DNA of 64,000 bases from Pseudomonadota bacterium (GTDB taxonomy: Bacteria; Pseudomonadota; Gammaproteobacteria; Steroidobacterales; Steroidobacteraceae). The position numbers were made by a program, and so were the translations under genes. The notes under the pieces were generated by a model that did not search any database, was not told the origin of the DNA, and worked only from the letters and a program-made list of their open reading frames with translations. The stretch lies in contig JAJZDX010000010.1 of NCBI GenBank assembly GCA_021805865.1, positions 1-64,000 of the forward strand. Direction: 5' to 3'. Shown here piece after piece: positions 2,664 to 13,718 of the stretch (position 1 is its first letter; every line of letters starts with the position of its first letter).

Positions 2664-3812
2664 TCACCGGTCCCGGGCCGGCTGCCCGTCGATCCACGTC
2701 TCGAGCACATTGAGGCCGTCGTCTGCGAGCACAAGGTTGGCTCGATAGCCGGGCTCGATGCGGCCAAGCTCGTGCGCCAGGCCCAGGAACTGCGCCGGAT
2801 AGAGGCTTGCCATGCGCACGGCTTCCGCGAGCGGCAGGCCGAGAAGCGCGATGGCGTTGCGCACGCAGCTCGCCATGTCGATGTTGGAGCCCGCAAGCCG
2901 GCCGTCCTCATCGAGGCAGACCGACCCGGAGACGGTGATCTTGCGGCCTTGAAGCCGGAACGAGCGCGTGCCGGTGCCGACGCTCGCCATGGCATCCGTC
3001 ACCAGCATGAAACGGTTCAAGGGCTTGCAGCGCATCGCCAGCCGAAGCACGGCCGGGGCGATGTGCTCGCCGTCGGCGATGACGCCGCACCAGCTGGAAT
3101 CATCTTCGAGCGCCGCGCCCACTACCCCCGGCTCGCGGCTCGTGAGCGGGGACATCGCGTTGAACAGGTGGGTGAATCCCCGCAGACCGTGATGCAGCGC
3201 TTCCACGATCTGCGCGTGAGTGGCGTTGGTGTGACCCGCGGAGACGAGCACTCCGGCGTCGGCGAGCTGCCGGATGCTGTGCGGCGTGGTCATCTCCGGG
3301 GCGAGGGTGACCACGGTGATGCCGCTCGAGAGCGAAGTCAGAAGGCCCATGGCGCTGGTGTCGAGCTCGCGCAGCTTGGCCGGGTCGTGCACGCCCTTGC
3401 GCTCGACATTGAGGAACGGGCCCTCGAGATGGATCCCGAGAACCCCCGGGACGCCGGCCGCCAAGGCTTCGCGAGCCGCTGCGATGGCCTGGGCCACCAC
3501 CTCCAGGTCCGTGCTGATCAGCGTCGGCAAAAAGCCGGTCGTGCCAAATCGCCGGTGGGCGCGGCCGATCTGGCGGATCGCCTGCACCGTGGGCGCCTCG
3601 TTGAACAGCACGCCGCCGCCGCCATTTACCTGGATGTCGATGAATCCCGGCAGCAGCATGCGACCGCCGAGGTCGCGCGGGGTCGCACTGTGGCACCTCG
3701 GGTCCGCCTCCGGCACCACGGCGAGGATTCGTCCATCCGCGATCAGCACACACAGTCCTTCGACGAGTGCCTTGCCACGCAGCACCCGACCGTTGAGAAG
3801 TGCGATAGGCAT
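2664..3812 (-). CDS. nagA: N-acetylglucosamine-6-phosphate deacetylase
   Basis: Cytoplasmic amidohydrolase that removes acetate from GlcNAc-6-P to give glucosamine-6-P for catabolism or wall recycling. At 382 residues it has full family length. Visible motifs in order: LLPGFIDIQVNGGGG, HLEGPFL (metal-binding Glu), SAGHTNAT (metal His), THLFNAMSPL (substrate/metal His), LVTDAM (catalytic Asp) and LAGSNIDM. The ATG overlaps the TGA of the upstream SIS gene by one base, the coupling expected of an intact nag operon. That partner is now only a remnant, so the deacetylase may have been left without its deaminase. It appears intact itself. Confidence 0.93.
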   Translation of the reverse strand: MPIALLNGRVLRGKALVEGLCVLIADGRILAVVPEADPRCHSATPRDLGGRMLLPGFIDIQVNGGGGVLFNEAPTVQAIRQIGRAHRRFGTTGFLPTLISTDLEVVAQAIAAAREALAAGVPGVLGIHLEGPFLNVERKGVHDPAKLRELDTSAMGLLTSLSSGITVVTLAPEMTTPHSIRQLADAGVLVSAGHTNATHAQIVEALHHGLRGFTHLFNAMSPLTSREPGVVGAALEDDSSWCGVIADGEHIAPAVLRLAMRCKPLNRFMLVTDAMASVGTGTRSFRLQGRKITVSGSVCLDEDGRLAGSNIDMASCVRNAIALLGLPLAEAVRMASLYPAQFLGLAHELGRIEPGYRANLVLADDGLNVLETWIDGQPARDR

Positions 3813-4134
3813 CAGACGGTCTCGGTGACTTTGCGCAGGTGAGGGGGGATGTCGGGGTCGAGACCGCGCGCGAGCGACAGGGCGTTCGCCAGGCGATAGA
3901 AGCTCTGGATCAGCAGCATCGGCTCGATCGCCGGGTCCGCCGGCTCGGCCGCGAGCGGCAGGGCCTGCGGGCAGCGGGAGCCGGCGATCAGGACGGCGGC
4001 ATGGCGCGCGGTGAGCTCCATCGCCAGCATCTCGATGCCGGCGCGGGCCTCGTCGTTCTGAGAAAAGATCAGCACTGGAAATCCCGCCTTCACCAGTGCC
4101 ATGGGACCGTGGCGCAGCTCCGCGGCGCTCACCG
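3812..4134 (-). pseudogene. C-terminal remnant of a SIS-domain (GlmS/NagB-II type) aminosugar isomerase
   Basis: About 105 residues match the C-terminal end of the SIS-domain glucosamine-6-P deaminase/isomerase family usually paired with nagA: VSAAELRHGPMALV, FPVLIFSQNDEARAG, IQSFYRLANALSLARG, and the family ending PPHLRKVTETV. A full enzyme is about 340 residues with two SIS domains; the first domain and the start of the second are absent. The frame stays open upstream to an ATG at 4396, but those residues are low-complexity and lie opposite the EIIB remnant, so homology breaks sharply near 4134. Its stop still overlaps the nagA start. I read this as a truncated, non-functional gene left by a deletion. 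Confidence 0.8.
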
Positions 4135-4172
4135 CCACGGCGGTGCCCGAGGCCGCCGCGCTCACAAAGCCG

Positions 4173-4412
4173 GCCATCGAGAAATTACTGGCCGCCCTGG
4201 GCGGGGGGAACAACGTGCGCGCCATCGAGAGCGCCGCCTCGAGACTTCGGGTGTCGGTGGCGCAAGTTGCGGGGGTCGATCCTGCCGCCATCGGGCGTCT
4301 GGGCTTGCGCGGCGCGGCGGTGGTGGCGCCGGATTGCCTGCACGTCACCGTGGGTCCGGCCGCGCAGTCGGCATGCTCGGCGCTGCGGGAGCTCATCGGA
4401 TCGCCCGGCTAG
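4173..4412 (+). pseudogene. C-terminal EIIB fragment of a GlcNAc-type PTS permease
   Basis: On the plus strand, the reading EKLLAALGGGNNVRAIESAA followed by SRLRVSV, GVDPAAIGRLGLRGAAVV and a LHVTVGP segment fits the EIIB domain of glucose/GlcNAc PTS permeases, whose usual core is N-(V/I)-R-x-(V/I)-(D/E)-x-C-x-T-R-L-R. Here the cysteine that carries the phosphate is replaced by alanine (ESAASRLR). The whole membrane EIIC domain is missing: the frame opens only at an ATG at 4101, inside SIS-antisense sequence. The fragment ends with a TAG at 4410-4412 that shares the palindrome CTAG with the stop of the minus-strand aminotransferase. It looks like the surviving 3' end of a nagE-like gene and cannot be active. 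Confidence 0.65.
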
Positions 4413-5590
4413 CCCATCCTTACCATCAGACGCTCGTGTCTGCGCAGTGCGTCGAACAGGGCGTCGATGTCCGACTCATCGTTGTAGAAATGAGCTGAGA
4501 CCCGAAGGTTTCCGTCGCGAGTGGAGGCGAGAATGCCTTCCTGCGCGAGCGCGGCGACCAGGGCCGGGGAGTCGCGGGAGGCGAGCGCGATCATCGCCCC
4601 GTGCTGCTGCGGGGTGGTCCGTGCGTATCCGGCCTCCCGCGCGCGCCGCTTGATCTGCTCGGTGAGGCTGCCGATCCGCTCCTCTATGGCGCCGAGACCG
4701 ATCTCGCGAACGATCCGCAGTCCCTCCTCGGCCATGTACACGTTCGCGACCGGCGGTGTGCCCGCCTCGAAGCGCCGGGCGGTGAGGGAGGGGTGGTGCG
4801 CCGTGGCGTCCATGGCGCCTATGTCCTCCTGAGCGAACCAACCGGTTGCGGCGGGTGAGATCTGCTCGATGAGGCTCGCCGCCACGCAGGCGAAGGCGAT
4901 GCCGGAGGTGCCGAGCAGGTATTTCATCATGCCGCCGAGGATGATGTCCGCGCCGTGATCGCGTGCGCTCTCGCGCGCCGTGCCGATGGCCTGGTAGCTG
5001 TCGACGAGGAGCAACGCGCCATTGCGGTGCGCGATATCGGCGATCTGCGCGATCGGCAGCCGCGCGCCGTTGCGGTAACAGACCTCCGAGGTGGCCACCA
5101 GCAAGGTGCGCTCGTCGACCACCGCGGCGAAGCGCTCGGGGTCGATCCAGCCCTGGCTCGAGGGGATTTGCACGATCTCGGCCCCGCGCGCCGTTTGCGC
5201 ATGCCAGATTTGGCCGTGGGTCGGGAATTCCAGGTCCGTGATGACGATCCGGTTGCGCGAGCTGTCGAAACGCAGGCCGCTGGCGATGGCGTTGAGCGCT
5301 GCGGACACCGAGGAAGTGAGCGCGATTTCCGTGGGCCGCGCTCCGAGGAGCGCGGCGACCGACAGGCGCAGCGTCTCGTAGCGCTCGAGCCAAAGGTCCC
5401 AGGCGCATCCGGACTCCTCTCGGGCTGCGAGATAGGCGCCGAGAGCCGCGGAGACCGATTGCGCCATCGCCGCGTAGGCGCAGCTGTTGAGGTACACCTT
5501 GCGCTTGAGCAGTGGAAAGCCGCCGCGCCAGGCGCTCCAATCGATATCTTGCCCGGGGCGCGGTGCGCCGGCAGGGGTGGGTCGGGACAT
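4409..5590 (-). CDS. Class V aminotransferase (PLP-dependent)
   Basis: A 393-residue fold-type I PLP enzyme of class V (NifS/CsdA/isopenicillin-N-epimerase-like). Visible motifs: VYLNSCAYAAM near the start, TSSVSAALNAIASGL, VITDLEFPTHGQIW, the PLP aspartate in LLVDSYQAIG (about D197) and the Schiff-base lysine in GGMMKYLLGTSG (K223), then ARRFEAGTPP. The cysteine loop of true cysteine desulfurases is not evident, so a desulfurase role is not supported; substrate is unknown. The gene is divergent from the lasso operon with 168 bases between the starts. That could be chance, or it could share the regulatory region. The 3' end touches the EIIB remnant. Confidence 0.8.
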   Translation of the reverse strand: MSRPTPAGAPRPGQDIDWSAWRGGFPLLKRKVYLNSCAYAAMAQSVSAALGAYLAAREESGCAWDLWLERYETLRLSVAALLGARPTEIALTSSVSAALNAIASGLRFDSSRNRIVITDLEFPTHGQIWHAQTARGAEIVQIPSSQGWIDPERFAAVVDERTLLVATSEVCYRNGARLPIAQIADIAHRNGALLLVDSYQAIGTARESARDHGADIILGGMMKYLLGTSGIAFACVAASLIEQISPAATGWFAQEDIGAMDATAHHPSLTARRFEAGTPPVANVYMAEEGLRIVREIGLGAIEERIGSLTEQIKRRAREAGYARTTPQQHGAMIALASRDSPALVAALAQEGILASTRDGNLRVSAHFYNDESDIDALFDALRRHERLMVRMG

Positions 5591-5758
5591 GGCGCCGGAA
5601 GGGTACCATCGGGGCCACCGAGGTGGGCGGGATCCTCAATCTGTGCGTGAAATGGCCCGGGTGTACGTCTTTGCTATTGGAGGGCACCATGCTAGAGAGG
5701 GGAGCGGCGGAAGGCGCATCGGGCGAGTCCCGCCTGCGCCTCGGACTGCGACAGGAAA

Positions 5759-6529
5759 ATGGCAGGGACAGGGGGGGATACATCCGTGGACGATGGCGAA
5801 GCACCGTACCTGCTCGCGCCGCACGTGCATCTGTGCGTCTGCGGCCGGCACGTTGTGCTGATGGACCTGCGGCGCGACCGATACATCGCGGCCCAGCCGG
5901 CGCATCTGCTGGCCGGCTGGGTGAGCGGTTGGCCGGGAGCCGAGGCGGCGGCCGAGTCCGCCTCCGGGACCGGGCGGGAGGGCCCGCGCGGCTCACGCGC
6001 TCCGGCTCTGCTCTCGAAGCTGCTCGCGCAGGGCATGCTGGTGGAAGGCGCGGGGGCGGGCCGGCCCGCCACTCCGCTCGCTCTCCCGGTCGCGCAACGC
6101 ACCCTGCTCGAGTTCGATTTCGACCGGCCGCCGATGGCGCGCGCCGCTGACCTCCGGCGCTTTGCTCTCGCCTGGGCGCGGGCGCGGTCCTCCCTCGCGA
6201 TGCGCCCCATCCACTCCATCGTCGCCGGCGTGCGGGCGCGCAAGGCGCATCAGCTCCAGGCGGCGCACGGGTCCGATCCGCAGCGCGAGCGCGCGTTGCT
6301 GATGACCTTCGTGCACCTGCGCCCGCTTTTCTATACCGTCCGGCGCGCGTGTCTGCTCGACTCGCTGACGTTGGTGCACTTCCTCGCCGCCTCCGGAGCG
6401 TATCCCGAGTGGGTATTCGGTGTCAGGACGGCGCCTTTTGATGCGCATTGCTGGGTTCAGCGGGGCGAGGTGCTGTTCAACGACACTCCGGATCGCGTCC
6501 GCCAGTACTCGCCCATCCTGCAGGTGTAG
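5759..6529 (+). CDS. Lasso peptide B protein: fused RRE (PqqD-like) and leader peptidase
   Basis: A 256-residue two-domain protein. Residues about 17-95 resemble a PqqD-type RiPP recognition element (YLLAPHVHLCVCGRHVVLMD, then the helical LLSKLLAQGMLVEG), which binds the precursor leader. Residues about 110-256 resemble the transglutaminase-like lasso B2 peptidase, with a likely Cys-His-Asp triad at C198 (RRACLLDSL), H230 (FDAHCWVQ) and D242 (FNDTPDRV). In many other lasso systems, mainly Gram-positive ones, these are two proteins; the fused form is usual in proteobacteria. It would cut after the leader and hand the core to the cyclase. A GTG at 5786 behind a run of Gs is an alternative start. 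Its stop is two bases from the cyclase start, so translation is probably coupled. Confidence 0.88.
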   Translation: MAGTGGDTSVDDGEAPYLLAPHVHLCVCGRHVVLMDLRRDRYIAAQPAHLLAGWVSGWPGAEAAAESASGTGREGPRGSRAPALLSKLLAQGMLVEGAGAGRPATPLALPVAQRTLLEFDFDRPPMARAADLRRFALAWARARSSLAMRPIHSIVAGVRARKAHQLQAAHGSDPQRERALLMTFVHLRPLFYTVRRACLLDSLTLVHFLAASGAYPEWVFGVRTAPFDAHCWVQRGEVLFNDTPDRVRQYSPILQV

Positions 6530-6531
6530 TC

Positions 6532-8364
6532 ATGTTTCGTTATGTCGCCTGGACCTGGAACGACGAGGACCCGGACGCCCGCCGACAGGCGCTCGCGCTG
6601 CTCTTGCCGTTCCCGGGCGGCTGGCAGACGGTGCTGCACGGGCGCGGCATCGAGGTGCGCTGCGCTGGCCTGCGGCCCGGCTCATGCGAGGTGTATCGGC
6701 TCGCCGGCGGCGAGGGCGTGGTGTTGGGCAGGCTCTTTGCGAGGGGGCCGGCCGGCTCGAGGCCTGCGCCGGCCGCCTTCGGCGAGCGCGACAGCCGCTC
6801 GCTGCTCGCAAGCGGCGGCCGCCGTCTGGTCGAGGAGTACTGGGGCCGTTACGTGGCGTTTTTGCGCGCGGCCGGCACGCACACCAGATGGGTGGTGCGC
6901 GATCCGTCCGGCGGCCTGCCCTGCTATACGCTGCGTCACGGCGCGGTGGATCTGTACTTCTCGTGGATCGAGGATGTGCTGCCGCTTTGCGCAATGCCCC
7001 TGACGGTCGACTGGTCCTATCTCATCGCGGGCCTGTGCCGGATGCGCGAGCACTGCGCCCGGACCGGGCTGCGCGAGGTGAGGCAGGTGCTGGCGGGGGA
7101 GTGTGTCGAGATCCGTCCGGGCTCTGTGGCGCGGCGCTTTTACTGGGACCCTCTCTCGATCGCCGCGGACGTGCTCGAGGACGCCCGGCAGGCCGCCGAA
7201 GCGATGAGCCAATGTGTCAGGGACGTGGTGCGCGCATGGGCGGGTTGCTACCGCGGCGTGCTGCTGTCGCTCTCGGGAGGACTCGATTCATCGATCATCC
7301 TCGCAAGCCTCGCCGGTGCGGCGGGTCCGCGGCTGCACTGTTATCACTACTATCCGCTGGAGGCGGATCTCGACGAGCGCCGTTTCGCGCGCGCCGCAGC
7401 GGCGGCCGCCGGCCTGACTCTGATCGAGCGGCCGCGGCCGGCGGGGTTCAGCCTGCAGCCGCTGCTTTCGATCCATCCCACGCCGGAGCCGACCAACTAT
7501 CCGTACTATCTGGAACACAGCCGTTCGGAAGCCGCACACGCCGCCGAGTCAGGCGCGGAGGCGGTGTTCATCGGCTACGGGGGGGACCAGCTCTTCTACC
7601 AGGAGTGTGCGCTGTGGGCCCCGGAGGCCTTTCTGCGCCGGCGCGGCCTGCGGCCCGGGTGGGCCCGCGTGCTGCTTGAGTCGGCGCGGATGGATGAAGT
7701 GTCCGTGTGGCGGGTATTGGCAGCCACGCTCGGCGCCTGTGTCGGGCACCGCCGGTGGAGTCCTGCGCGGGAGGCGGGCAGGGGCCGGCCCCTGCTGTCC
7801 CGTGCGGCGGTGGTCGAGGCGATCCGGGCTCAGGAGTGCCTTCACCCGTTGTTGCGTCCGCGGCGCGGCGCGCCGAGCGGAAAGCTCTTCCACGCTCATC
7901 AGATCGTCGCGCCGTTCGACTTTTACGACCCGCTCGGCGCGCCGGCCGACCCGGAGCGGGTCGCGCCGCTGCTGTCACAGCCGTTGATGGAGTTGTGCCT
8001 TCGCATACCGATCGACGTGCTGACAACGGGCGGCTGGGACCGGGCAATCGCACGGCGGGCTTTTTACGAGCAACTGCCGCCCGCGGTCCGCAACCGCCGG
8101 AACAAGGGCGGCATGGAGGCGCAACTGCGGCTCACCGTCGAGCGCAACCGCGGCTTGCTGCGCGAGCTGCTGTGGCAGGGCGGGTTGGTTCGCGAGGGGC
8201 TGCTCGATCCGGGGCGGCTCGAGCTCGCACTCTCGGGCCGGGCGCAGATCGAGACCGAGTCCGCAGAGCTGCTGGAGTACGCCGGCGTCGAGGCGTGGGT
8301 GCGGCGTTGGATGAACAGGATCTCGTCACCGGACCGCCCCCTGTGGCAGACTTCATCCGCTTAA
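6532..8364 (+). CDS. Lasso peptide cyclase (asparagine synthetase-like C protein)
   Basis: A 610-residue homologue of asparagine synthetase B. It would adenylate the side-chain carboxylate of the ring Asp and let the core N-terminus attack, closing the macrolactam. The N-terminal glutaminase-like half is degenerate: the protein starts MFRYVAW with no Cys2 nucleophile, as in known lasso cyclases. It keeps the EEYWGRYVAF and VVRDPSGGLPCY motifs. The ATP-pyrophosphatase signature is SLSGGLDSS at about residues 246-254, followed by HCYHYYPLEADLDERRFA and GYGGDQLFYQE. The ATG at 6532 is chosen because it follows the B stop directly. The TonB-dependent receptor starts 12 bases downstream, making a B-C-receptor operon. 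Confidence 0.9.
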   Translation: MFRYVAWTWNDEDPDARRQALALLLPFPGGWQTVLHGRGIEVRCAGLRPGSCEVYRLAGGEGVVLGRLFARGPAGSRPAPAAFGERDSRSLLASGGRRLVEEYWGRYVAFLRAAGTHTRWVVRDPSGGLPCYTLRHGAVDLYFSWIEDVLPLCAMPLTVDWSYLIAGLCRMREHCARTGLREVRQVLAGECVEIRPGSVARRFYWDPLSIAADVLEDARQAAEAMSQCVRDVVRAWAGCYRGVLLSLSGGLDSSIILASLAGAAGPRLHCYHYYPLEADLDERRFARAAAAAAGLTLIERPRPAGFSLQPLLSIHPTPEPTNYPYYLEHSRSEAAHAAESGAEAVFIGYGGDQLFYQECALWAPEAFLRRRGLRPGWARVLLESARMDEVSVWRVLAATLGACVGHRRWSPAREAGRGRPLLSRAAVVEAIRAQECLHPLLRPRRGAPSGKLFHAHQIVAPFDFYDPLGAPADPERVAPLLSQPLMELCLRIPIDVLTTGGWDRAIARRAFYEQLPPAVRNRRNKGGMEAQLRLTVERNRGLLRELLWQGGLVREGLLDPGRLELALSGRAQIETESAELLEYAGVEAWVRRWMNRISSPDRPLWQTSSA

Positions 8365-8376
8365 GCGGCAGGGAAC

Positions 8377-11370
8377 ATGGATCAAACCAAGCAAGCCTCA
8401 AGGGGCGAGGATACGAGGCCTCTTCGCGCGGGGGGATCGCGCCGCGCCTGGCTGGCATTGGCGGCGCTGCTCAGCGCTCCGGCCTGGGCCAATGGGCCGG
8501 TGCAGCGGTTCCACCTTCCCTCCGAGCCCTTCCCGCAGGCCATACTCGATTTCTACCATCAGTCGGGTGTCCAGGCGATCTACGCGGCGACACCGCGGGT
8601 CGAGAGGATCCGGACCCGGGAGGTCTCCGGCCTGATGAGCAGCGCCACTGCCCTGGCGCGGATGCTGCGGGGCACCGGCCTCACATTCTTATTCGACAGC
8701 GAGCGCTCGGTCATCATCCGGCCCGCATCGCCCGCGAGCGTCCGGCGGGCGCCGGCCGCGCGCGCGCCGGCCGCGCGCCGTGCCGACCGCGCCCCGTCCA
8801 ATCCGCAACCGGGTGGCGGCGAGCTGCGGGAGGTGGAGGTGACCGGCAGTCTCATTCGCGGCGTACAGGATGTGTCGGCCCCGCTCCTTTACATAAGGCA
8901 TCAGCAGCTGTCGGAGGCGGACTACGCCACGGTGCAGGACGCGCTCTACGAGTTGCCGCTGGTGTCGATGGATGGACCGCGGGAGGACCTGGGTGTCGAT
9001 GACAACTACCAGTATGGGGCCGGCATCAACCTGCGCGGCCTCGGGGTGGGGGCCACGCTCGTGCTGGTCAACGGTTACCGCCAGCCGCTCGGGGGACTGA
9101 CGGGCGATTTCGTCGACGTGTCGACCATCCCGTGGAGCGCCGTCAAGCGCATCGAGGTGTTGCCTGATGGCGCCTCGGCGCTGTACGGCTCGGACGCGAT
9201 CGCCGGCGTGGTCAACATCATCATGCGCAATCGGTTCAAGGGCGCGGAAACCGGCGTCAAGTACACCACGGCGCCGGACGGGCGTGCCGAGACAATGGTC
9301 TCGCAGCTGCTCGGCGCCGGCTGGAAGGGCGGGCACGCCATGCTGGCCTACGAATATTCCGATGCCACGCCGCTCGCGGCGGCGAACCGGCTGTATGCAG
9401 CCAACGCCGACAAGATTCCCTACGGCGGCACCAATTACGACAGCTACTACAGCAACCCGGGCAACATCCTCGATCCCCAGACCTTGCTGCCGGCCTATGG
9501 TATTCCCGCCGGCCAGGACGGCAAGACGCTGACCGCGGGCGATCTCACCTCGACCATCAATCTGCAGAACCCCTTCGCCCAGTTCCAGATCTTTCCCGAG
9601 CGCACCGCACACGAGTTTTACGCCGCGGCTTCGCAGGACCTGACCGCCGCGCTGAAGGTGTTCGTGCAGGCCCGATACGCCCGGCGGAACACGCAGCTGA
9701 GCACCCGGCCGGACCAGCAGGTGCTGACCGTGCCCGCGACCAACCCCTTCTACGTCAATCCCTATGCGGGCGTGCCGTACACGCTGGTCGCCTACAGCTT
9801 CCAGAGCGACTTCGGGCCGACCCGATTTGCTTCCCGCTCGCGCGTGTACATGGGCACGCTCGGCGTCACGGCTCGGATGGGCGCCGGGTGGGAGGCCACG
9901 TTGAGCGAGTCCATCGGCAACCAATCCCTGCTCGACGATGAATACAACGTGCCTGATCCCCAGCAGCTCGCGGCCGCCCTGGCCGACTCCAATCCAACCA
10001 CCGCGTTCGATCCCTTCGGCAACGGCTCATTCACCAACCCGGCCACCCTGGCCCTCATCCGCCGCGACTACCGGCTGCATTCGAGCGATGGCATCGAGGA
10101 GACCGATCTCGTCGCGGACGGGCCCCTGATGCGATTGCCGGCGGGGGAGGCGAAGCTCGCCGTGGGCGTGGAGCGAAGGAGCGAGACACTGCATCAGGAG
10201 GTGCCGGATCCGCAAGGGATCCTGACCGCCGAGCGCTACGGGCGCCATGTCTGGTCGGTGTTCTCCCAGCTGGACGTGCCGCTCGCGGGGGATCCGCGCA
10301 ACCGGCGCGCGACCCCGCGGCTGATGCTCGGCCTCGCGGGCCGGTACGATCACTACAGCGATTTCGGCGGCACCTTCAATCCCACCGCGCGCCTGCAGTG
10401 GACCGTGGCGCACTGGTTGAAGTTGCGCGGCAGCTGGGGCCGCTCGTTCCGGGCGCCCAAGCTCGATGATCTCTACGACACCTCGCAAAACGTCGCCTTC
10501 ATGACGGTGCTGTCCGATCCGAAGTCCTCCACCGGCCGATCCCTGGTGCTGGGGGAGCAGGGGACCAACCCGAACCTGCGCCAGGAGACCGCCCAGACCT
10601 GGACGGTGGGGATCGACGTGGCGCCCGGGCGGGGATCGGAGGTGTCGCTGACTTACTACGCGATCGACTACTTCAACCGCATCGTGCAACCCGCCGCCGC
10701 CGACCCTCTCGGTATCCTCGAGCATGCGGCCGAGTGGGCGGCGGTGATCAAACGCGATCCCACCCCAGCGCAGATCGCGGCGGTGTGCGAAAGCCCCGAG
10801 TTCGTCGGCTCAGTGGTGAGCTGTCTGGCGAGCCGGCCGGCGGCCATCATCGATCTGCGCCTCGCCAATCTGGCCGCCACCCGCACCAGTGGGCTTGACC
10901 TGGAAGCCCATGAGCGTTTCGCGAGCCGGTGGGGTCAATTCGCCTTCGGGCTCGAAGGCAACTACGTGTTCCGCTTTCTGCAGACGGCGACTCCGGCCTC
11001 CCCGCCGGTCAGCATTTTGAATACCGTGGCCAACCCGTTGGCACTGCGGTTGCGGGGCACGGTCGGATGGAGCCGCCATGGGCCGCAGTGCCCGGGCTGG
11101 AGGCTGCACCTGGCCGTCAATTACACCGGTGCGTATCGCAATCCCGCAAGCGCCACGCTGTCGAACGTGTCAGCCTGGACCACGGTGGATGCCCAGGTGG
11201 CCTACCGGATGGCCGGCGTGCTTCGGTCGGGCAGCACAGACCTGGCGGTGAACGCGGTAAACGTCCTGAACCACTCTCCACCCTTCGTCGACAGCCAATT
11301 CGGCTACGACATCGCCAACTTCCAGGCCCTCGGGCGCGTGCTCAGCCTGGACCTGACCGAGAGATGGTAA
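8377..11370 (+). CDS. TonB-dependent receptor with N-terminal STN signalling domain (FecA-like transducer)
   Basis: A 997-residue outer-membrane receptor. The signal peptide ends about AWANG. Next, at about residues 45-110, is an STN (secretin/TonB N-terminal) domain: FHLPSEPFPQAILDFYHQSG, a segment with SALARML-like helix, and FLFDSERSVIIRP. After an Ala/Arg-rich linker come the TonB-box area and plug: EVEVTGSLIRG, GINLRGLGVGATLVLVNGYR, and VLPDGASALYGSDAIAGVVN. The barrel fills the rest and ends in an aromatic strand, LSLDLTERW. STN domains contact FecR-type anti-sigma factors, and a fecI/fecR pair lies just downstream. The ligand is unknown; the neighbouring lasso peptide, or a metal complex of it, is an obvious candidate. 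Its stop is 5 bases from the convergent precursor stop. Confidence 0.9.
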   Translation: MDQTKQASRGEDTRPLRAGGSRRAWLALAALLSAPAWANGPVQRFHLPSEPFPQAILDFYHQSGVQAIYAATPRVERIRTREVSGLMSSATALARMLRGTGLTFLFDSERSVIIRPASPASVRRAPAARAPAARRADRAPSNPQPGGGELREVEVTGSLIRGVQDVSAPLLYIRHQQLSEADYATVQDALYELPLVSMDGPREDLGVDDNYQYGAGINLRGLGVGATLVLVNGYRQPLGGLTGDFVDVSTIPWSAVKRIEVLPDGASALYGSDAIAGVVNIIMRNRFKGAETGVKYTTAPDGRAETMVSQLLGAGWKGGHAMLAYEYSDATPLAAANRLYAANADKIPYGGTNYDSYYSNPGNILDPQTLLPAYGIPAGQDGKTLTAGDLTSTINLQNPFAQFQIFPERTAHEFYAAASQDLTAALKVFVQARYARRNTQLSTRPDQQVLTVPATNPFYVNPYAGVPYTLVAYSFQSDFGPTRFASRSRVYMGTLGVTARMGAGWEATLSESIGNQSLLDDEYNVPDPQQLAAALADSNPTTAFDPFGNGSFTNPATLALIRRDYRLHSSDGIEETDLVADGPLMRLPAGEAKLAVGVERRSETLHQEVPDPQGILTAERYGRHVWSVFSQLDVPLAGDPRNRRATPRLMLGLAGRYDHYSDFGGTFNPTARLQWTVAHWLKLRGSWGRSFRAPKLDDLYDTSQNVAFMTVLSDPKSSTGRSLVLGEQGTNPNLRQETAQTWTVGIDVAPGRGSEVSLTYYAIDYFNRIVQPAAADPLGILEHAAEWAAVIKRDPTPAQIAAVCESPEFVGSVVSCLASRPAAIIDLRLANLAATRTSGLDLEAHERFASRWGQFAFGLEGNYVFRFLQTATPASPPVSILNTVANPLALRLRGTVGWSRHGPQCPGWRLHLAVNYTGAYRNPASATLSNVSAWTTVDAQVAYRMAGVLRSGSTDLAVNAVNVLNHSPPFVDSQFGYDIANFQALGRVLSLDLTERW

Positions 11371-11375
11371 GGGGA

Positions 11376-11549
11376 TCAGTAGTACTGCCAGCCAAGCCCG
11401 CTGTCGACTTTATAGCCGAAGATGCCGCCTTGGGTGTCGGAGACCTTGCCGAGCTCCGTCAGGCTCCCCGCCTCCTCGTCTCGAGCAGCCTGCTCAACCT
11501 GATGCGTCTCGCTCATCTGCAGCCGGTCGTCATTCTGGGGAGTATTCAT
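11376..11549 (-). CDS. Lasso peptide precursor, antisense to the operon
   Basis: A 57-residue peptide that has every hallmark of a lasso precursor. The ATG at 11549 has an AGGAG site about ten bases upstream; an upstream ATG at 11582 would include that site and is less likely. The leader (residues 1-40) ends SLTELGKVSDTQ, with the LxxLG pattern read by RRE domains and the key threonine at position -2. The predicted core (residues 41-57, coding 11429 down to 11379) is GGIFGYKVDSGLGWQYY: Gly1 for the ring, Asp9 at the permitted ring-closing position, and bulky Trp14, Tyr16 and Tyr17 as likely plugs. It lies convergent to the receptor gene and divergent from the sigma factor gene, unlike the usual precursor-first order. 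Confidence 0.87.
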   Translation of the reverse strand: MNTPQNDDRLQMSETHQVEQAARDEEAGSLTELGKVSDTQGGIFGYKVDSGLGWQYY

Positions 11550-11610
11550 GGCTCCGCTTCTCCTGCCGTTACCGCACAACACCAGTTACCCGCGCCGGAT
11601 CGGCGGTCGC

Positions 11611-11637
11611 GATGGCCGCCCGCGCAGGCGTATTTCC
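11611..11637 (-). promoter_or_regulatory. Candidate FecI-type promoter for the lasso precursor
   Basis: On the minus strand a GGAAAT box (11637-11632), the -35 sequence favoured by FecI-like sigma factors, lies about 80 bases ahead of the precursor start. Fifteen to seventeen bases further on is a GCCATCGC region where the -10 would fall; it does not clearly match a known FecI -10. The placement between the precursor and the sigma factor gene fits regulation by that sigma factor. This is inference from one motif. The remainder of 11550-11796 shows no other gene. Confidence 0.3.
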
Positions 11638-11796
11638 CGGAGCATACGCTCAAGCACCTCTTCGGGCACGCTCGCGGCACGTCCGGCCACATTATGTTCA
11701 ATGATAGCTTAGCGCAGCGGGCGCAGCTCGCAAAATCTTTCGCCGGGGGTGGGGGATGGGCTTCGCTGCGGCATCTAAGTACGCAAGGAATAGGGA

Positions 11797-12366
11797 ATGG
11801 ACAAGACATTGGGCGAAGTGAGACGTTTCCCCGGAACGGGGGGGGGCAACGATTTTTTTGCGCGGCTGTGCCGGACCCACGAGGCGCAGCTGCTCGCCTA
11901 CCTCACCCAGATGCTCGGCAGAGCGGATCTGGCCCGTGAGGTGGCTCAGGATGCCTATGAGAAGCTGCAAAGGATGTATCGCCCGGAGCAGCTGCAGTTT
12001 CCGCGCGCGATGCTGTTCAAGATCGCGACCAATTTCGCCCTCATGCGGCTTCGGCGGCGGCAACTGGAGAGCACGCTGTTCGCGGGACCCGGGGGAATGG
12101 AGGAGGTCCCCGACCAGGATCTGGGTCCGGAGCGCAGAGTCCTGGCCGATCAGATCGGACAGCACCTGGTACAGGTCATCAAGGGGCTGCGCCCGACTTT
12201 GCGTGAGGTGTTCGTCATGGCGCATGTGCAGGGCAAATCGCGCAAGGAGATCGCCGGTCGGCTCGGTATCTCGGAGAAGCGGGTGGATAAGCGCATGACC
12301 CGGGCACTGAAGCAGTGTCGTACGAGGTTGTCGTCCCAAGGCATTGATCTAGCGGAGGTCGATTGA
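11797..12366 (+). CDS. FecI-like ECF sigma factor
   Basis: A 189-residue extracytoplasmic-function sigma factor. Region 2 is seen at about residues 22-85 (FFARLCRTHEAQLLAYL, DLAREVAQDAYEKLQR, FPRAMLFKIATNFALMRLRRR) and region 4 at about 125-180 (LRPTLREVFVMAHVQGKSRK, then EIAGRLGISEKRVDKRMTRAL with the helix-turn-helix). The spacing and the DLAREVAQDAY motif match the FecI group. The ATG at 11797 follows an AAGGAA site. The stop overlaps the start of the fecR-like gene by four bases, the usual sigma/anti-sigma coupling. Expected to direct RNA polymerase to lasso-locus promoters when the STN receptor is engaged. Confidence 0.9.
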   Translation: MDKTLGEVRRFPGTGGGNDFFARLCRTHEAQLLAYLTQMLGRADLAREVAQDAYEKLQRMYRPEQLQFPRAMLFKIATNFALMRLRRRQLESTLFAGPGGMEEVPDQDLGPERRVLADQIGQHLVQVIKGLRPTLREVFVMAHVQGKSRKEIAGRLGISEKRVDKRMTRALKQCRTRLSSQGIDLAEVD

Positions 12367-13397
12367 GCTTCGGCGGATTCCTTTCCGGCTGGCGGTGCCG
12401 CCGTGTGCGCAGGCAGGCGGCGGCGTGGGTGAGCGCCATGGATGAGCCCTTCGCCCCGGAGCGCCAGCGCGCCTTTACGGCGTGGCTCGCCGAGCCGCTG
12501 CATGCACGGGAATTTCGCGAGTTGCGGGCCGTATGCGATGTCGCGGCCGATCTCACGGGTGCTGCGGAGGCTGAGGTGCTGGAGAGCATCGCCGACACGG
12601 CCTCCTGCGAGCGCCCGCGGGCGGGGCTTCTGTGGCTTTCCGCGGTGACGGTGCTTGCCGTGTTCGCCGCCCTGACGGTCGGGTGGCTGTGGTTGAACGA
12701 CCAGGGATATCTGCCTCGAATGTATCGGACCGGGGTCGGGCAGATGCACAGCGTCGTGCTGCCTGACGGCAGTGTCGCCTACCTCAACACGCGTACACGG
12801 ATGGAATGGATAGGCAGTCCCGAGAATCGGCGCGTTCGGCTGCTCGGCGGCGAGGTGTTCTTCGAGGTGGTGCACGACCCGAGCCGCCCGTTCCGTATCC
12901 TGCTTGCACACAGCGAGGTGCGGGTGCTCGGTACGCGATTCGACGTGTACCAGAAGTCGGACGGCAATGTCGTTGTCACCGTGGTGAGCGGCAAGGTGTC
13001 GGTCGAGGGGCTCGGCAGCATGCCGGCCGCACGGCCGTCCTGGAGCCGCCGACTGACGAGCAACGAGCAGATCGAGTACTCCCCGGTGGGCCTGGTGGCC
13101 GATGTCCACCCCGTGCGCGCCCTGAGCGTCATTCGCTGGCGCCAGGGCATGATCGAGACCCGGGGAGAGCGGCTGTCGCGATTCATCGGCAATCTCAGCC
13201 GCTACACGTCCCAGCGCATTGTCATCGCCGATCCGCGTGCCGCGCGGATGCGGATCGGCGGAGCGTTCAGCGTTCGCAACGTCGACGCCACGCTCGAGCG
13301 CATTGCACGAATCGAGCCCATCACCGTCACTCATCAGGACGGGGAGATCATTGTGGGGTATCGATCGCTTCGGGAAAACGGGGGGTCCATACCCTGA
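12363..13397 (+). CDS. FecR-like anti-sigma factor/transducer
   Basis: A 344-residue inner-membrane regulator. The start is a TTG overlapping the sigma factor TGA. The N-terminal cytoplasmic part (residues about 15-75: RRQAAAWVSAMDEPFAPERQ and LAEPLHAREFRELR) is the DUF4880-type sigma-binding domain. A single membrane helix follows (WLSAVTVLAVFAALTVGWLWL). The periplasmic FecR domain is at about 120-220 (HSVVLPDGSVAYLNTRTRM, VRLLGGEVFFEV, VRVLGTRFDVY, VVSGKVSVEG). The C-terminus (LSRFIGNLSRYTSQRIVIAD) resembles the STN-interacting tail. It should hold or activate the sigma factor according to signals from the receptor encoded at 8377-11370. Confidence 0.9.
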   Translation: MSFGGFLSGWRCRRVRRQAAAWVSAMDEPFAPERQRAFTAWLAEPLHAREFRELRAVCDVAADLTGAAEAEVLESIADTASCERPRAGLLWLSAVTVLAVFAALTVGWLWLNDQGYLPRMYRTGVGQMHSVVLPDGSVAYLNTRTRMEWIGSPENRRVRLLGGEVFFEVVHDPSRPFRILLAHSEVRVLGTRFDVYQKSDGNVVVTVVSGKVSVEGLGSMPAARPSWSRRLTSNEQIEYSPVGLVADVHPVRALSVIRWRQGMIETRGERLSRFIGNLSRYTSQRIVIADPRAARMRIGGAFSVRNVDATLERIARIEPITVTHQDGEIIVGYRSLRENGGSIP

Positions 13398-13446: not shown

Positions 13447-13487
13447 GGAATCGTTCTTTGGAATCAACACCTACAGAGGAACAGCAG

Positions 13488-13718
13488 ATGCTCATACTTA
13501 CAAGGCGGGTCGGCGAGACCGTGATGATCGGGGACGAGGTCACCATTACGGTGCTTGGCGTCAAGGGCAATCAGGTCCGTATCGGCATCAACGCGCCGAA
13601 ACACGTCGCGGTCCACCGCGAGGAGATCTACGAGCGAATCAAGAGGGAGCAGCGTGCCGCGGCCTCGAACGGGGAGCCGCCGCCGCCTGTTCCGAGCTTC
13701 GCGCCCCCGGGGAACTGA
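13488..13718 (+). CDS. csrA: Carbon storage regulator CsrA/RsmA
   Basis: A 76-residue RNA-binding translational regulator that binds GGA motifs in mRNA leaders. The canonical sequence is complete: [50 protein letters not shown]. The functional Arg44 equivalent lies in VAVHREEIY. The tail after KREQRAAAS is Pro-rich ([15 protein letters not shown]) and longer than the 61-residue E. coli protein. The ATG at 13488 has an AGAGGA site. In many gammaproteobacteria csrA is near alaS and tRNA genes; here it directly follows the lasso regulatory genes and is followed by a non-coding stretch and a GGDEF gene. Confidence 0.97.

Follow-up and report, generated by a model that had tools for sequence, protein, structure and literature searches.

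A probable lasso peptide precursor gene that lies apart from its maturation genes and convergent with a TonB-dependent receptor gene

Lasso peptide clusters of the astexin, benenodin and sphingopyxin type combine a precursor gene (A) and the maturation genes B and C with an isopeptidase gene, a TonB-dependent receptor and a sigma/anti-sigma pair. As laid out in sections of PMC9266682, a GntR-like regulator lies before the precursor gene in isopeptidase clusters, the TonB-dependent transporter and the sigma/anti-sigma pair lie downstream of the isopeptidase gene, receptor and sigma/anti-sigma genes beside lasso genes are a known layout, and the functions of isopeptidase-containing lasso peptides are called enigmatic. 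The hypothesis that such clusters behave like siderophores is repeated in a passage of PMC11006600, which also presents the sphingocin cluster of Sphingomonas BPH, where A lies within an A-B-C operon and the lasso genes adjoin a divergent isopeptidase and a TonB-dependent receptor. Metanodin comes from a Steroidobacterales bacterium in a soil metagenome; its cluster includes an isopeptidase gene, and its precursor was left unannotated by antiSMASH (portions of PMC12670498).

Here, we studied a locus in a 64 kb stretch of DNA, referred to below as the window. It shares with the astexin, benenodin and sphingopyxin type the three lasso genes, a TonB-dependent receptor and a sigma/anti-sigma pair (a trait of isopeptidase-type clusters), and relatives of its A match the benenodin model. 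It differs in that the cluster contains no isopeptidase gene, C being followed directly by the receptor gene, and in that A lies on the opposite strand, 3' to the receptor gene, instead of ahead of the maturation genes. Like the sphingocin cluster it joins lasso genes to a TonB-dependent receptor, whereas its A stands apart from B and C and convergent with the receptor gene. Metanodin probably belongs to the same bacterial family as the window and its precursor was likewise overlooked by an automatic tool; it differs in a ring that begins with Asn, in its isopeptidase, and in an A gene that adjoins B according to a cloning figure legend (PMC12670498). In the accessible text of open-licence PMC papers, we found no precedent for a lasso precursor that lies away from B and C yet beside its receptor.

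We consider it likely that A encodes a benenodin-like lasso precursor, and that its peptide and the convergently encoded receptor form a ligand-receptor pair; the peptide would be secreted, recaptured by the receptor and sensed via FecR and FecI, and some non-producing kin may exploit it. As judged from the sequences of its precursor, B and C, the system belongs to the lasso class. The locus is made up as follows.

5759..6529, plus strand: B, leader peptidase with a C-terminal transglutaminase-like B2 domain (NF033537)
6532..8364, plus strand: C, asparagine-synthetase-like lasso cyclase (PF00733); putative start at the ATG at 6532, directly after the B stop
8377..11370, plus strand: TonB-dependent receptor with a plug domain and a sub-cut-off match to an STN signaling domain (profile matches)
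11376..11549, minus strand: probable lasso precursor gene A, 57 aa (conservation, selection, convergence with the receptor gene)
11379..11429, minus strand: core peptide GGIFGYKVDSGLGWQYY, with a predicted Gly1-Asp9 ring and an 8-residue tail (Gly1, Gly5 and Asp9 columns invariant in 22 rows)
11430..11549, minus strand: predicted leader peptide, 40 codons, C-terminal LTELGKVSDTQ, Thr at -2 (Thr invariant in 22 aligned rows)
11691..11701, minus strand: TTGAACATAAT element between A and FecI, a putative promoter or operator of A, FecI, or both
11797..12366, plus strand: FecI-like ECF sigma factor (profile matches)
12363..13397, plus strand: FecR-like anti-sigma factor/regulator (profile matches)
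13485..13718, plus strand: csrA, a conserved neighbor marking the ancestral site, outside the system (profile match)

The probable precursor gene and its neighborhood

The original prediction had placed a 57-codon gene with this leader and core on the minus strand, convergent with the receptor gene and with the two stops 5 bases apart; the ORF was recovered at 11376-11549, and both the convergence and the spacing were borne out on the window coordinates. A thus sits 3' of the receptor gene and is followed by FecI and FecR on the plus strand. The predicted masses were reproduced on recalculation (linear 1908.905; minus water 1890.894; MH+ 1891.901; 2+ 946.454). An alternative GTG start lies 11 codons upstream of the ATG, and the MNTP-type ATG is the start common to the homologues of relatives.

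A has the marks of a lasso precursor, namely Thr at -2, a small residue at position 1 and Asp or Glu at positions 7-9. This pattern occurs once in the 64 kb window, and 60 dinucleotide shuffles contain it 1.0 times on average. Within the 10 kb surrounding the locus it likewise occurs once; shuffles of that region average 0.205, and 36 of 200 have at least one match. Because the count in 64 kb equals the shuffle mean, the motif was rejected as stand-alone evidence for A, which rises above the chance level because it is conserved in relatives and not because of the motif. The window's A matched no Pfam or NCBIfam model (for the benenodin model NF033522, no match at E<=1). Of the 22 aligned rows, however, 10 matched NF033522 (best 2.6e-7) and 5 matched the subterisin model PF24178 (best 6e-7), both at E<=1. 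The expectation that A would escape detection held for scanning downstream of B and for NCBIfam and Pfam models; six-frame tools such as RODEO could detect it.

All neighbors named in the original prediction (B, C, the TonB-dependent receptor, FecI and FecR) were confirmed by profile matches. The B2 domain of B matches NF033537 at 74.8 bits (cut-off 33), and Cys198, His230 and Asp242, which we take to be its catalytic residues, are invariant. The N-terminal region of B is probably the fused leader-binding (B1, PqqD-like RRE) part; no Pfam match was found in residues 1-130, and an AlphaFold model, with strands followed by helices, was set aside as evidence for a leader-binding domain because its pLDDT of 55.8 is too weak. 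C matches PF00733 at 1.1e-22 and the lasso-cyclase model NF033535 at 60.1 bits, far under the cut-off of 525, and contains SGGLDSS, presumably the functional motif of asparagine-synthetase-like enzymes. PDB sequence searches with B and with C returned no match.

The source genome (4.68 Mb in 83 contigs, 98.75% complete) has one B-type match. A single lasso isopeptidase query had no match in the window, and the two homologues in the genome lie on other contigs. Searches for control signals found no Rfam match in the window, no sigma-70-type promoter in 11250-11900, no terminator in the gap between the receptor gene and A, and, judged by eye, no clear motif shared by close relatives upstream of B.

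Conservation and relocation of the precursor and receptor genes

The A protein was searched in 148 genomes, and gene profiles served to draw the layout of 61 regions surrounding matches to A or B (genomes are cited by G and loci by L numbers). Homologues were detected in 25 of the 148 (E<=0.001, the window's genome included), all of one genus. A tree of B was built from 49 of the 51 matches longer than 150 aa, with two dropped for a short aligned part and shorter fragments never entered; in it, the window's B falls in a clade with 24 rows, each from a different genome and the window's among them (support 95/98). As the original prediction requires, A is kept in relatives along with B and C: a homologue is present in 22 of these 24 genomes. 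The other two (G019, G039) have contigs that stop shortly behind C, and a search for this type of receptor gave no match in them either. The relatives are draft genomes, many of them fragmented, and some absences may be gaps.

By direct reading of the 22 A-bearing genomes of the B clade, all homologues have Thr-2 and Gly1, and the predicted ring-closing Asp is at position 9 in 21 and at position 8 in G068. In the alignment of 22 intact A rows, the Thr-2, Gly1, Gly5 and Asp9 columns are invariant, an invariance that holds for intact rows only, as these rows were chosen and the damaged copies of G029, G048, G056 and G003 were left out, together with G007, G017, G042, a duplicate in G035 and the other-lineage L118. 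The two A copies of G035 were not counted as separate genes: both lie at contig ends with identical overlapping residues, and they were read as a single gene interrupted by a contig junction.

No rival precursor emerged from a lasso-like pattern scan of the 61 loci (66 matches, duplicates included, among 17,243 ORFs), in which A was the only conserved match at the B-clade loci. Conventional candidate precursors do occur just upstream of B and on the same strand in other B lineages (G009, G038, G055, G056, G058), and isopeptidase homologues lie beside C or the receptor of other B lineages, either at nine other loci or in a twin cluster at the same locus. The homologue in G048 matches PDB 5jrk, which we take to be the sphingopyxin I isopeptidase, at 1e-8. 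The reversed layout of A was seen in one B/C lineage, whose cluster showed no isopeptidase gene.

In wider draws, the A family appeared in 23 of 396 genomes of the order, from 4 genera that all belong to the window's taxonomic family, and in 1 of 369 genomes of the class, the window's own; the family was unseen outside this taxonomic family in the draws made (396 order and 369 class genomes). The weakest order-level match, at 0.0027 in G316, directly precedes a different B gene.

A convergent receptor gene lies within 1 kb of A in 27 of the 30 loci with an A-profile match, and loci outside this set were checked against the layout drawing. Of the three exceptions, L118 is an other-lineage precursor, and the other two, L080 (G042, where the orientation of A relative to the receptor is thus out of view) and L089 (G035), lie at contig ends with no receptor in view. 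With the broken G056 set aside, 24 of 26 loci have 5-70 bases between the two stops; the distance is 197 in G017 and 346 in G045.

This pairing persists where the locus has come apart. In five genomes (G031, G034, G035, G052, G055), the receptor gene and A are found away from B, C, FecI and FecR, which sit on another contig; in G031, A and B are each more than 20 kb from the nearest contig end, which puts a minimum of about 43 kb between them. The five receptors form one clade (SH-aLRT 100), and the B genes of these genomes form, with that of G039, one B clade of 6 rows (100/99). FecR is still beside csrA in all five, as in the window, and the relocated pair is flanked by Peripla_BP_2-type and LysR-type genes in all four genomes with enough flanking sequence, the flanks in G035 spanning two contigs. 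The split layout, with its one origin, is taken as derived because the basal rows (G061, G068, G050, G038) either show the linked arrangement or are compatible with it. Relocation is the strongest pointer that the partner of A, besides B and C, is the receptor, and on phylogenetic grounds the distant B and C of the split clade would act on the relocated A.

A Peripla_BP_2 (BtuF-like) gene lies beside the relocated pair at L087 4725-5693, with matches in L090, L094 and L099. Such a neighbor fits a metallophore-like use, adjacency alone being a weak sign.

Selection, decay and the possible role of the receptor

Across 15 pairs with intact core motifs, which share genomes and are thus not independent (one includes G017, whose B and C are out of view), dN/dS of A ranges from 0.20 to 0.64, and dN of the 17-codon core is 0 in 7. 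Core values are higher in G025/G022 (dN 0.080, dS 0) and in two split-clade pairs (dN/dS 0.77 and 1.41), which fits diversification or relaxation. The 57-codon ORF is a real gene, and these values indicate purifying selection on A in producers. Among G029, G048 and G007, in contrast, where B and C are broken or unseen, A looks relaxed: the three pairs give dN/dS of 2.3-3.3, each from no more than 2 synonymous changes; comparisons of G041 with G029 and with G048 gave 0.64 and 0.74.

Damage to A accompanies damage to the maturation genes. In G029, B and C are fragmented and Asp9 of A is replaced by Ala; in G048, B and C are fragments and Asp9 is replaced by Gly, with A and the fragments lying on separate contigs, which were taken as neighbors since a single receptor gene is divided between them. 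A is out of frame in G056, which retains remnants of B and C, and in G003, which has fragments of C and where no B was found. No A was found between the receptor gene and FecI-FecR in G005 and G036, where nearby B and C are only of another lineage and the receptor reading of G036 is split over two frames, so that its integrity is uncertain; in G012 a 3.6 kb contig carries the receptor gene and FecI, and its 75% complete genome gave no B match. Taken together, a homologue kept with B and C, no rival ORF, and a core conserved in producers and relaxed or broken where B and C are broken support the original prediction of a lasso precursor, and A is very probably the precursor matured by the B and C encoded at 5759-8364.

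These events were placed on a receptor tree of 32 rows, with G061 and G068 as outgroup and G007, G017 and G032 labeled as B/C unseen; the more distant receptors of G004 and G009 were left out, as were a second receptor in G068 and the additional contig pieces from G007 and G038. The tree requires 3 changes for damaged A and 2, possibly 1, for absent A, and 4 when these are pooled without the B/C-unseen rows. Two well-supported losses (G029/G048 and G003/G056) are counted because G007 sits inside the G029/G048 group. One or two more are counted for G005, G012 and G036, so that decay or disappearance of A and B/C affected no fewer than two lineages and probably three or four. Where seen whole, the receptor and FecI/FecR stayed constrained in the lineages that lost A and B/C. 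Receptor dN/dS is 0.20-0.32 in non-producer pairs, slightly above the 0.14-0.23 of five producer pairs; the corresponding values are 0.12-0.33 for FecI and 0.21-0.26 for FecR, each against 0.16 in one producer pair.

It is very improbable that B and C act on another precursor and that A encodes a peptide for immunity or regulation, or is an ORF that arose by chance. The non-significance of the lasso pattern taken alone and the failure of any lasso model to match the window copy would suit such a reading, which is opposed by the conserved Thr-2, Gly1 and Asp9, by purifying selection, by decay together with B and C, and by the lack of any other conserved lasso-like ORF at these loci. Less improbable, though still unlikely, is that A is a lasso precursor and that the receptor and FecI/FecR are mere neighbors serving an unrelated nutrient, as their persistence without working A, B and C in several relatives might suggest. 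Against this, the receptor gene and A remain adjacent and convergent after parting from B/C and FecI/FecR, the exceptions to their pairing (3 of 30 A-profile loci) are two contig ends and one other-lineage precursor, and receptor and sigma/anti-sigma genes occur with lasso genes in a known layout (sections of PMC9266682). Precursor and receptor can be read as acting as a pair, because they stay side by side when separated from B and C, and because the receptor, with FecI/FecR, outlives production.

Under this ligand-receptor reading, and by inference from known families, B would remove the 40-residue leader after Thr-2/Gln-1 and C would close the 9-residue ring between Gly1 and Asp9, giving a threaded 17-residue lasso of about 1890.9 Da. 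The peptide would leave the cell, and the TonB-dependent receptor encoded convergently with A would bind and re-import it. Occupancy of the receptor may be signaled through FecR and FecI to the locus, by analogy with FecA-FecR-FecI, the ferric citrate signaling system, with which the locus shares the combination of a receptor (with a weak STN match), FecR and FecI, and from which it differs in that the proposed ligand is a self-made peptide.

The survival of the receptor and its sigma/anti-sigma pair after production was lost in several relatives suggests uptake or sensing, by non-producers, of a peptide that their kin make. The contrary view, that they do not exploit kin and that their receptors bind a different ligand or the decay is recent, concerns the ecological part only, is compatible with the ligand-receptor reading, and in our estimation falls only somewhat short of an even chance. 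TonB-dependent receptors are versatile, some losses look recent (G029/G048/G007, G003/G056), and receptor dN/dS in non-producers is slightly raised; the constraint on receptor, FecI and FecR (0.12-0.33) in the same genomes where A is relaxed or broken, and the repeated losses, argue the other way. More tentatively, and with less confidence than doubt, we suggest that precursor and receptor may evolve and move together as one ligand-receptor cassette, which can part from the enzymes producing the ligand. The lasso peptide may be a diffusible shared good or signal in the genus, and receptor-only relatives could be listeners or cheaters, under selection to go on sensing or importing a peptide that they have ceased to produce.

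Comparative genomics here favors the receptor as the peptide's partner, and matched producers, split producers and receptor-only relatives provide material for testing a siderophore-like or signaling role. Precursor searches should cover the region convergent with the receptor gene, as well as receptor loci without B and C.

A putative control element and other lasso loci

TTGAACATAAT has its only exact copy in the 4.68 Mb source genome between A and FecI, and when up to one mismatch is allowed the window contains a single match, compared with 0.03 on average in shuffles. Exact or one-mismatch copies number 15 in the 925,539 bases of 66 loci, where equal base frequencies predict about 16 per Mb, and all 15 lie in or by the FecI-A stretch, or the FecI-receptor stretch where A has been lost. 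The exact element is upstream of 9 of 25 A genes; the split clade lacks it, as do the linked G022, G023, G025, G038, G042 and G050. It may serve FecI, because the A-less G005 (one mismatch), G012 and G036 keep it.

The source genome holds two further FecI-FecR-receptor-isopeptidase loci. In L161 (G000:C79:14000-29805), the locus spans 3739-10399, and no A, B or C was found in 15.8 kb; it may serve to consume lasso peptides that other bacteria produce. In L162 (G000:C81:119000-129547), the locus spans 3036-10425 and is followed by a partial C near the contig end; this is probably a second lasso cluster whose B has fallen in an assembly gap.

Elsewhere, B or a remnant of it has an extra FecI-like sigma gene upstream in L077, L109, L111, L112 and L151; none was seen in the window. 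Other-lineage precursors with a possible 7-residue ring (Glu7) lie upstream of B at L118 7686-7862 and L105 7926-8042. Six loci (L084, L085, L086, L098, L110, L117) carry two B/C sets a few kb apart and facing away from each other, as back-to-back twin lasso clusters; one set is broken in L098, and by the tree the two sets belong to different B lineages in L084, L085, L086 and L110.
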